Below, one piece after another: positions 8,991-13,311 of a DNA stretch of 32,687 nt. Origin of the DNA: Opitutia bacterium (GTDB lineage Bacteria > Verrucomicrobiota > Verrucomicrobiia > Opitutales > Opitutaceae). Position 1 is the stretch's first letter, and every line of letters begins with the position of its first letter. Below the pieces are notes generated by a model. The model worked only from the letters and a program-made list of their open reading frames with translations, was not told the DNA's origin and did no database searches. The DNA lies in contig JACQFT010000151.1 of assembly GCA_016199925.1 (NCBI GenBank), forward strand, positions 1 through 32,687. Reading direction: 5' to 3'. Position numbers and translations under genes: made by a program.

Positions 8991-9157
8991 TCGCCGACGA
9001 ACGCCGGAGAAACTTTCGCGGTCGCTCTGATGGCGAATCGGCACGAAGCGAGCCCGGGTATCGGGAAGCAACTATCGGAGCGGGGTCTGGCGCATTGCCC
9101 GAGCGCTCCGCCATTTTCCCTTTGCCCCGGGCCGGGTGTTGGACCTCACTCTCGCGC

Positions 9158-10225
9158 ATGGCTGACTACGTTGCTCCCGTTTTCCTGACCGAATTGCTCC
9201 GGGCCAAGTCGCCCTCCGGTTCAGAGGGCCAGGCTCAGGCCGTCTTCGACGCCCACGTCAAACCGCACGCCGACACCTACGCCAACGACGCCCTCGGCTG
9301 TCGCCTCGCCACGCTCAACAAGTCCGGCGGCCCGACCGTGATGTTCTCCGGCCACATGGACGAACTCGGCCTCATCATCACCTACGTCAACAAGGACGGT
9401 TTCATCTATTTCGACACCATCGGCGGCCACGACAAGACGATCATCTCCGGCCGCCGCGTGATCATCCAGACCGCGCACGGTCTCGTGAAAGGCGTCACCG
9501 GCAAGCGCGCCATTCACCTGATGGAGGAGTCCGACCGCAAGAAGGTGCCCGAGATTCACGAGATCTGGATGGACATCGGCGCGAAGTCCAAGGCCGAGGC
9601 ACTCAAGCGCGTCGCCATCGGCGATGTCGCGACCTACGACCACGAATTCGAAATCATCAGTGGTAGCGTCGGCACCGCACGGGCCTTCGACAACAAAGTT
9701 GGCGCCTACATCGTCGGCGAAGCGCTCATCCGTCTCTCCCGGGAAAAGGCCAAGCTCAACGCCAAGATCGTCTCCGTCGCCACGACGCAGGAAGAGATCG
9801 GCGTGCGCGGCGCGACGACGTCGGCGTTCGCCGTTGATCCGCATGTGGCCCTCGCCGTCGATGTCGGCCACGCGACCGACCACCCCGACTGCGACAACCG
9901 CAAATACGGCGAGACCAAGCTCGGCGGCGGCCCGATCATCTGCCGCGGCCCGAACGTCAATCCCAAGGTTTACCAGCGCCTGATCGCCTGCGCCAAGAAA
10001 GCAAAGATCACCGTGCAACTCGAGGCCGACCCGCGCCCGACCGGCACCGACGCCCGCGCGATCCAGATGGCGCGCGGCGGCGTCGCCTGCGGCCTCGTCT
10101 CCGTGCCCCTGCGCTACATGCACACCCCGAGCGAAGTCGTCGACTTGGAGGACGTCGAAGCCTGCGTGAAGCTCTTTGTCGAGTTCGCCAAGTCAGTCGG
10201 CAAAGGCGAATCCTTCAACTGGTGA
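9158..10225 (+). CDS. M42 family metallo-aminopeptidase
   Basis: A 355-aa cytoplasmic peptidase of the tetrahedral aminopeptidase/FrvX type. Dinuclear metal ligands and catalytic residues can be placed: H66 and D68 in SGHMDELG, D178 in RAFDNKVG, the EE pair 212-213 in TTQEEIGVRG, D235 in AVDVGHATD and H322 in RYMHTPSE. The family trims peptides released by proteases, fitting a nutritional or protein-turnover role. The frame is open from 9095, but the ATG at 9158 gives the expected MADYVAPVFLTELL start. The stop overlaps the GTG of the next gene by 3 bases, so the two may be co-transcribed. Confidence 0.92.
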   Translation: MADYVAPVFLTELLRAKSPSGSEGQAQAVFDAHVKPHADTYANDALGCRLATLNKSGGPTVMFSGHMDELGLIITYVNKDGFIYFDTIGGHDKTIISGRRVIIQTAHGLVKGVTGKRAIHLMEESDRKKVPEIHEIWMDIGAKSKAEALKRVAIGDVATYDHEFEIISGSVGTARAFDNKVGAYIVGEALIRLSREKAKLNAKIVSVATTQEEIGVRGATTSAFAVDPHVALAVDVGHATDHPDCDNRKYGETKLGGGPIICRGPNVNPKVYQRLIACAKKAKITVQLEADPRPTGTDARAIQMARGGVACGLVSVPLRYMHTPSEVVDLEDVEACVKLFVEFAKSVGKGESFNW

Positions 10226-11256
10226 GCACGCACCCCCGATACAGCCCTCGGTTCTCTCCGGCTTGGTTCCGGAGCACTGGGGACGCGGCTCCCTCGCCGC
10301 GTTTTTTCGAGCCGGGGCCGACGCGGCTCCAGTCCGATCACCGGCGAGTTCTCTCCGCTCTGCTCCTCGCCACCGCGCTTTCGCTCGGCGCCGCCAAACT
10401 CTCCGCCCTCATCATCTCCGGCGGCACGACCTCCGCCAACCAGCGATTCAGCGGCACGTTTCCGACGGCGCCGACCGCCAACAGCTCGTTTCAGTTCAGC
10501 TCGTTCGATTTCTCCGGTGTTGGCTGGCAGACGGCCAGCTCCGCGTTCGGCGTCACGCTCATCTCGCCGCAGGAATACCTCACTGCGGCGCACGTCGCCC
10601 CCGCCGCCGGCTCGACCGTCACGTTCCTCGGCGCCGACAACGTGCTGCACACCTACACGGTCGCCAGCACGACGGCGGTCACGCTGCCGCTGAACGGCGC
10701 GACGACCGACCTCGTCGTCGGCCGGCTCACGGCGCCGATCTCCCCCTCCGATCGGGTGGCGTTTTATCCGACGCTCGTGCTGAGTTCCTTCAACGCCTAC
10801 CTCAACCTGCCGGTCGTGATGTATGGCCAGACGGGGGTGGTCGGCACCAACAACGTCCAGACTTTCTTCGTCAACGTGGACGTCCTGCCGTTCGGCACTG
10901 CGCCCGACGGCACCGCGGACAGCATCCTGCTGTCGACGCAGTTCGACGCCATCACTGGCGAAGCGCAGGCGCAAGGAGGCGACTCCGGCAGTCCGACGTT
11001 CATCATCGCGAGCGGCCAACTGGCGCTCGTCGGCGTGCATTCCGCCATCAACGGCGCGCCCCCGCCCGAGCTGACGCTCGACTCCTTCGTCCCGAGTTTT
11101 TATTCGCAGATCAACAGCGTGCTCAACGGCGACGGCTACACCTTCGGCGCGCTGACGGCGGTGCCCGAGCCGGGCACGACGGCGCTGCTCGCGGGCCTGG
11201 CGGCGTCGGGCGTCATCGCGTGGCGGCGACGGACGAGCCTGGTCACGCGCGTCTGA
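10222..11256 (+). CDS. Trypsin-like serine protease with PEP-CTERM anchor
   Basis: Up to 344 aa. The chymotrypsin-fold triad is visible: H124 in LTAAHVA, D163 in TTDLVVG and S255 in GGDSGSP. The end carries VPEPGTTALLAGLAASGVIA, then WRRRTS, a PEP-CTERM signal for exosortase processing. A signal-peptide hydrophobic core (VLSALLLATALSLGAA) lies unusually far in, at residues 43-58. The GTG at 10222 overlaps the preceding stop. The first 40 codons cover a GC-rich repeat-like segment (10265-10335, with GACGCGGCTCC twice), so the true start may be downstream or the N-terminus may have been extended by a repeat. It likely acts outside the cell or in the envelope. Confidence 0.82.
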   Translation: MSTHPRYSPRFSPAWFRSTGDAAPSPRFFEPGPTRLQSDHRRVLSALLLATALSLGAAKLSALIISGGTTSANQRFSGTFPTAPTANSSFQFSSFDFSGVGWQTASSAFGVTLISPQEYLTAAHVAPAAGSTVTFLGADNVLHTYTVASTTAVTLPLNGATTDLVVGRLTAPISPSDRVAFYPTLVLSSFNAYLNLPVVMYGQTGVVGTNNVQTFFVNVDVLPFGTAPDGTADSILLSTQFDAITGEAQAQGGDSGSPTFIIASGQLALVGVHSAINGAPPPELTLDSFVPSFYSQINSVLNGDGYTFGALTAVPEPGTTALLAGLAASGVIAWRRRTSLVTRV

Positions 11257-11266
11257 ATCTCTGGCG

Positions 11267-11880
11267 ATCGGATGGGGTCACGGGGATTGCGCCCCGTGAC
11301 CCTTCCACACCACCGGACGTGCGGTTTGCCGCATCCGGCGGTTGGATAACAAGAGACGCTTACCCTGGCGACCTTAGCGCATCTTGCCAGGCACGCATCG
11401 TTACCGCATGGATCCACCATGCGTTCCGATCCGCCGAACGTGGGAAAACGAATTTCGCTCGACGCCCAGTCGTTTCGCCTGACTACGCGACTTGCCTTGG
11501 TCTTCATTGTCTCCTGCATCCTTCGGCCCTTCGCTCCTGCCGCCGTTACGCGGCGATCCTCACTACTACGGCCTCTGCTGACTTCTCCCACGCTCTCACG
11601 CGGGAGATCTCCCCGGGTAAGGTGCATGAACTTTCGGCCCGTGCCGTCAGGCTCTACCAGATGCGTCTTTCGGTGACGGTTGGATTTCGCGTTTTCTCGC
11701 ACGCTCATCGCCCGCATCTCGGCCTCGCTGCCTGTTCGTGTTCCTACGGTCGTGCCTTTGCCACGGACTTCTTTCGTGCTGAGTGCCTCGCGGCACCCGC
11801 CTTGTCCTTCACTACGGTTGTTGTCACTGGTTCCGGTCATTTTGTTTCTTCTGACGAGTTCATGCCCATGCCGGGCACAC
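11267..11880 (-). mobile_element. ORF-less group IIC intron (about 614 nt)
   Basis: Read on the minus strand. The 5' end at 11880 is GTGTGCCCGGCATGGGC, the group IIC start. An internal CTTACCCGGGGAGATCTCC and GTCAGCAGAGGCCGTAGTA match conserved intron blocks. Domain V is ACCGCCGGATGCGG, CAAA, CCGCACGTCCGGTGG with a CGC triad. Domain VI is an 11-bp stem (GGGTCACGGGG/CCCCGTGACCC), followed by an A seven bases from the 3' end and closing UCCGAU (11267). No reverse transcriptase is present: domain IV keeps only an AGGAGACAATG (ATG at 11507) and a frame without RT motifs. Boundaries come from family consensus, and ribozyme activity is untested. The ORF at 11136-11840 on the same strand is an artefact. 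Confidence 0.87.
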
Positions 11881-11883
11881 TAG

Positions 11884-11949: not shown

Positions 11950-11977
11950 AAAAACCCACAGGCACGGAGGCCTGTGG
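11950..11977 (-). terminator. Intrinsic terminator of the tig-clpP-clpX operon
   Basis: On the minus strand CCACAGGC-CTCCGT-GCCTGTGG forms an 8-bp stem followed by GTTTTT, 42 bases after the clpX stop. It lies between clpX and the intron landing hairpin, so the intron would be transcribed mainly by read-through. Confidence 0.75.

Positions 11978-12018: not shown

Positions 12019-13311
<1,293 letters not shown>

Follow-up and report, generated by a model that had tools for sequence, protein, structure and literature searches.

A 614-nt ORF-less group IIC intron behind clpX in an Opitutaceae bacterium, probably mobilised in trans by a resident reverse transcriptase

The locus and the anatomy of the intron

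We analysed a 32,687-nt stretch of genomic DNA from an Opitutia bacterium of the family Opitutaceae (contig JACQFT010000151.1, hereafter 'the window'), in which clpX and a convergent gene encoding a trypsin-like protease enclose a complete 614-nt group IIC ribozyme without ORF (11880-11267, minus strand; Rfam), with domains D1-D6 in order. The features of the locus, in window coordinates, are as follows:

10222-11256, plus strand: convergent neighbour gene whose product is a trypsin-like protease with PEP-CTERM; its end is 10 nt away from that of the intron
11266, minus strand: IBS3 (C), at which the 3' exon begins (every copy whose 3' exon can be read has C)
11267-11880, minus strand: ORF-less group IIC intron, 614 nt, 5' GTGTGCCCGGC at 11880 and 3' ...CATCCGAT at 11267 (Rfam; exon/repeat comparison)
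11268-11306, minus strand: domain VI, with a bulged A at 11273 and an A-T pair at 11297/11280
11309-11342, minus strand: domain V, 34 nt, with the CGC catalytic triad
11344-11525, minus strand: domain IV, about 180 nt, of the kind found in ORF-less introns (alignments, D4-D6 consensus fold, covariance model R1)
11382-11499, minus strand: D4a arm, putative maturase-binding subdomain (covariance model R2, from RT-bearing introns only)
11526-11621, minus strand: D2-D3 region, with the blocks CTTACCCGGGG and GTCAGCAGA (Rfam D1D4-1)
11622-11880, minus strand: domain I (Rfam D1D4-3 at 11797-11622; same as the RT-bearing copy wherever comparable)
11696-11698, minus strand: EBS1 (GAG), in the D1 terminal loop CGAGAAAA
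11881-11884, minus strand: IBS1 (GCTA), insertion site (assigned from its position and from the IBS1 in the IIC structure, PMC10190682)
11884-11905, minus strand: 5' exon hairpin CGGCAGGC-AGGGAC-GCCTGCCG (genomic repeat copies; DNA fold)
11956-11977, minus strand: intrinsic terminator of clpX, upstream of the hairpin
12019-13311, minus strand: clpX, codirectional neighbour (Pfam zf-C4_ClpX and AAA_2)

A preliminary description, made from the sequence of the window, had recognised the group IIC parts in order, a CGC triad and an A in domain VI seven bases from the 3' end, and all of these readings were borne out. Within the intron, group-II-D1D4-3 matched at 11797-11622(-) (92.5 bits, E 1e-17) and group-II-D1D4-1 at 11621-11526(-) (45.1 bits); the covariance search for domain V, on which that description had staked its reading, returned a D5-D6 match to all 77 positions of Intron_gpII at 11343-11267(-) (39.9 bits, 0.1 bit below the gathering score of 40; E 3e-6 in a search of 851 bases). 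The CGC triad and the D5 bulge were found by direct reading of the sequence, as was the bulged A of D6 at 11273 (the seventh base from the intron 3' end), and the intron fold has a z-score of -3.6. The claimed length of about 614 nt without an RT was likewise upheld, the ends being set by exon comparison, and tblastn with the RT resident elsewhere in the genome detecting no RT encoded in 11267-11880; ORF remnants are also absent. A 234-aa frame (11840-11136) was considered as an intron ORF and rejected, since it crosses all domains, runs past the 3' end and is not conserved among the other ORF-less copies. By every feature tested, 11880-11267 is a group IIC intron.

As had been described, the hairpin (11905-11884) is situated just past the clpX terminator (11977-11956). 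In a congeneric genome (G122) clpX is directly followed by an M42 peptidase gene, and the same gene (which we take, from reading the sequence, to occupy window positions 9095-10225) sits beyond the intron in the window, so that the two window flanks belong together. Behind clpX in G122 the intron, the repeat and the protease gene are all absent; as this comparison offers no base-exact empty site, copies of the repeat were used in its place.

The interrupted hairpin repeat

The perfect short hairpin that had been proposed as 5' exon proved to be a 22-nt element with an 8-bp perfect stem, belonging to a dispersed repeat: positions 11905-11881 have 23 perfect copies in the genome (including that of the window) and 59 at up to three mismatches, against 0 for the reversed control. 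This repeat, CGGCAGGCAGGGACGCCTGCCGCTA(C), is REP-like, and some of its copies form tandem or inverted pairs 40-130 nt apart. Similarity to the window ends at 11881 in most repeat copies, and all other copies inspected (23/23) read GCTA/C (the slash marking the insertion point). Since joining the exons of the window restores this same GCTA/C, the intron precisely interrupts one copy of the dispersed repeat, and the interval thereby behaves as the discrete insertion that had been predicted. The 3' exon of the window starts with C (11266), like that of every intron copy in which it is readable. Insertion is directly 3' of a DNA hairpin, with a short IBS1 and a one-base IBS3, as expected of group IIC; the DNA target in the E.r. 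IIC structure (PMC10190682) is a stem-loop, which carries an IBS1 and an IBS3 of a single base.

The EBS1 of the window intron (GAG) pairs with 5' exons ending in CTC, and the CTA exon of the window consequently leaves an A.G mismatch at -1 (EBS1/exon pairs: GAG/CTA in the window, GAG/CTC in a copy from genome G211, UAG/CTA in a copy from genome G094). Because of this mismatch, splicing of the window intron might be weak.

The resident RT-bearing intron and the domain IV module

The preliminary description had argued that such an intron would need a maturase in trans, and had proposed a genome search for full-length relatives with an RT. A probable source of this protein is present in the same 3.8-Mb draft genome (G000), where a near-identical RT-bearing relative occupies contigs C144 (the 5' 115 nt) and C226 (from intron position 145), with 29 nt unassembled and the break inside the shared core; the two parts are likely one intron copy. 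Window and RT-bearing copy are identical at 115/115 positions of the 5' part and differ once (at 11621) in the next 216 nt compared, and within D5-D6 only 11297 and 11280 differ, the D6 pair being A-T in the window and G-C in the RT-bearing copy (a compensatory change). The intact RT ORF on C226 (about 430 aa) is the sole RVT_1 match in the genome; its product has RVT_1 and GIIM domains only (Pfam), scores above the cut-off for TIGR04416 and carries YADD, and its nearest PDB relatives are the GsI-IIC RT (E 5e-120) and then the group II intron maturase of 7uim (E 2e-88). Judged by these homologies, the cognate RT-bearing intron encodes a class C RT. On C144 its 5' exon, which ends in CTC, forms another hairpin. 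Nearly identical in D1-D3 and D5-D6, the two introns differ by the RT of about 430 aa and by D4.

Two further group II-like sequences were observed in the window's genome. One (G000:C147:4225-4410) belongs to this intron family as a diverged 5' fragment (84%), behind a hairpin exon ending in CTC, and the other (G000:C187:6643-6758; L149:1501-1616) is a third D5-D6-like match (28.9 bits), near which no D1-D4 match was found, in a genome without a second RT; it may be what is left of a group II intron of another class.

Across 252 genomes of the family (DNA search and model R1), the D4 of the window was recovered in G082:C146, G082:C21, G120:C183 and G112. The G082:C146 intron matches the window at 81% over 562 nt, G082:C21 is a remnant without D1-D3, and in G112 only the tail of an ORF-less intron is present, at a contig end. 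The G082:C146 copy (L065) also bears a foreign-looking insertion of about 170 nt in D1, near intron position 50. Among the ORF-less copies D4 identities are 52-83% with no conserved reading frame, the D4 consensus fold is a single long branched arm, and the D4-D6 consensus fold contains 19 pairs with changes on both sides (four sequences); this D4 of about 180 nt is conserved and structured across three Opitutaceae genera. RT-bearing and ORF-less copies lie side by side in G000, G120 and G112, i.e. an RT is resident in 3/4 genomes with the ORF-less D4, yet in G082, with its two ORF-less copies, no RT of this intron family was found. No more than one intact copy was seen per genome (no burst), and no RT-bearing intron with a D4 of the ORF-less type was found in the 252 family genomes. 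When D4 alone was searched by DNA similarity in 373 genomes of the order (a sample without some of the family genomes) only chance matches were returned; the D4 pattern had no match in IMG/VR, and the whole intron none in plasmids. In GTDB r220 the D4 pattern was found only in the Opitutaceae/Verrucomicrobia MAGs RH-18aug17-13 and RH-23may17-318, which correspond to G120 and G082 and which, from these isolate names, we take to be of freshwater origin.

The motif AGGAGACAATG had been read as the trace of an ORF deleted from domain IV. This did not hold: AGGAGACAATG forms the 5' strand in the helix at the base of D4, and as an RBS/ATG remnant it was rejected, the other ORF-less copies reading AGGAAGCAAGG, TGGAAGCAAGG or AGGGAAGTATG, without conservation as a start site. 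The preliminary description was thus right in calling the intron ORF-less, but its D4 is not that of the resident RT intron minus the ORF, the window D4 being a separate structured module, containing D4a, that is shared with other genera.

RT-bearing relatives (G000, G072, G109, G112 and G211) possess a structured arm ahead of the RT ORF, and covariance model R2 was built solely from the D4a arms of these five introns. R2 matched the window D4 at 11499-11382 with 33.2 bits (E 2.1e-5, 43.7 kb searched; next window match 13.8 bits), and it matched the ORF-less copies of G082 with 28.3 and 19.1 bits, G120 not being among the matches listed. Counted per row over the R2 pairs with letters, 31/33 are standard in the window and 33/34 and 30/32 in the two other ORF-less rows, as compared to at most 16/29 in a control with the partner strand slid. 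The D4a homology rests on R2, because the reverse search (R1 on the RT-bearing introns) gave a best score of only 10 bits. In the E.r. IIC structure the maturase binds the D4a arm with high affinity (PMC10190682), and the retention of this arm in the window while the ORF was lost, as indicated by the homology, fits the prediction of maturase use in trans. The window intron thus presents the traits of an ORF-less, trans-mobilised intron: no IEP of its own, a related IEP-bearing intron in the genome and D4a homology.

Two side observations concern RT-bearing relatives. In the near-complete genome G211, two IIC introns minus different parts of the RT ORF (L068 and L069), neither of which gave a D4a match, lie beside an intact copy. 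In G109, a match to the Acido-Lenti-1 RNA barely over the cut-off (L074:1930-1974) lies about 180 nt downstream of an RT-bearing intron.

Conflicting histories of core and domain IV

In a tree of the D1-D3 core (about 210 columns, few rows, with ORF-less copies all from draft assemblies, where assembly collapse could inflate core near-identity), the window falls beside the resident RT copy, and the ORF-less intron from G120 clusters with RT-bearing introns of its own genus (99/99); a single ORF-less clade is rejected (p-AU 0.003). The D4a tree (about 120 columns, likewise few rows) unites the ORF-less copies in one clade (100/99) and rejects two groupings, window plus resident RT copy (p 8e-7) and G120 plus the RT copies of its genus (p 8e-5). 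In the window the switch between the two histories falls at the D3/D4 and D4/D5 edges. The D4 and core trees conflict. The simplest account of these sequences is a distinct ORF-less D4 seated on cores that were exchanged, or homogenised, with those of resident RT introns.

Taken together, these observations make it probable that the window holds a non-autonomous ORF-less group IIC intron that is mobilised in trans by the resident RT and whose core has been exchanged with that of RT-bearing introns. We infer that read-through from clpX would transcribe the intron, and that its RNA would fold into an active ribozyme whose D4a arm would bind the class C RT/maturase that the near-identical RT-bearing intron encodes at another locus of the genome; the common RNP would then splice the intron and reverse-splice it into DNA hairpins, here the repeat CGGCAGGCAGGGACGCCTGCCGCTA/C. 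An ORF-less lineage of (presumably freshwater) Opitutaceae would retain its own D4, its ribozyme core being exchanged or homogenised with resident RT-bearing introns through RT template switching or gene conversion. On whether this is a long-lived non-autonomous IIC lineage, with an ORF-less D4 that persists across genera and a core repeatedly replaced from the resident RT-bearing intron, core and D4 thus evolving as exchangeable modules (plausibly because the RT switches templates at the conserved borders D3/D4 and D4/D5), our judgement is evenly balanced.

Several independent ORF losses from RT-bearing introns with this variant D4a, and no exchange between copies, would account for the match between each core and the local RT-bearing introns, but we regard this course of events as unlikely, given that the 252 family genomes contain no RT-bearing intron of this D4 and that the best R1 score on an RT-bearing intron is 10 bits. 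It is quite improbable that the intron is a dead relic (i.e. the resident RT-bearing intron with its ORF deleted in place and the rest decaying): the core is nearly the same as that of the RT-bearing copy and degenerate copies do exist in relatives (G082:C21, without D1-D3), but the D4 of the RT copy does not contain that of the window (which is diverged, conserved, structured and common to several genera), D6 has changed only by a compensatory pair and ORF remnants are absent. We know of no use for a D4a arm in a protein-free ribozyme. As this arm is kept here with covariation, and as an RT is resident in 3/4 genomes with this D4, we find it very doubtful that the intron is a self-sufficient ribozyme, neutrally inserted between convergent genes past a terminator, despite its intergenic location and the precedent of C.te.I1 of C. 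tetani, which is without cognate IEP (PMC4424553). An assembly chimera in this draft (and probably metagenome-assembled) genome could be suspected from the RT copy broken at contig ends within the shared core, but is scarcely credible in view of the clpX-M42 peptidase order in G122, which joins the flanks, and of the same D4 inside introns of other genomes.

Our preferred reading, mobilisation in trans by the resident RT, has its closest counterpart in the TeI3 introns of Thermosynechococcus elongatus, which belong to subgroup IIB. These ORF-less introns owe their mobility to IEPs acting in trans, which related introns of that genome encode (Mohr et al. 2010, PMC2882425), and the window intron resembles them in the loss of the ORF from DIV, the preservation of DIVa and the presence of related IEP-bearing introns in the genome, its own action in trans being a prediction. 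In contrast to the TeI3 introns, in which clear remnants of the ORF share a breakpoint and which are not of class IIC, the window intron is IIC, lacks an ORF remnant, has a hairpin target and shows conflicting D4 and core histories across genera. With the E.r. IIC RNP (PMC10190682; PDB 7uim) it shares a IIC ribozyme, a homologous RT (E 2e-88, encoded by the resident RT-bearing copy), the D4a arm and a stem-loop target; the E.r. intron encodes its RT, whereas the window intron has no ORF and lies in a dispersed repeat. Insertion 3' of a DNA hairpin is likewise known from the IIC introns that occupy intrinsic terminators and attC sites (PMC4424553), but in the window the hairpin is one of many copies of a repeat, has no T tract and lies downstream of a terminator distinct from it. 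ORF-less introns have been termed rare in bacteria (PMC4424553), and no description of an ORF-less IIC intron carrying a conserved D4a module was encountered in the literature searched (with few subscription papers).

The occurrence of an autonomous and a non-autonomous IIC intron in one genome, combined with a domain IV reduced to a minimal D4a type, would provide a natural test of the RNA needed by a class C maturase in trans, and a compact 614-nt intron with a repeat-hairpin target may have experimental use. Moreover, group II introns may exchange modules, as the discordance between the D4 and core histories suggests, and this bears on the origin of ORF-less introns served by shared proteins, a proposed step toward spliceosomal introns.
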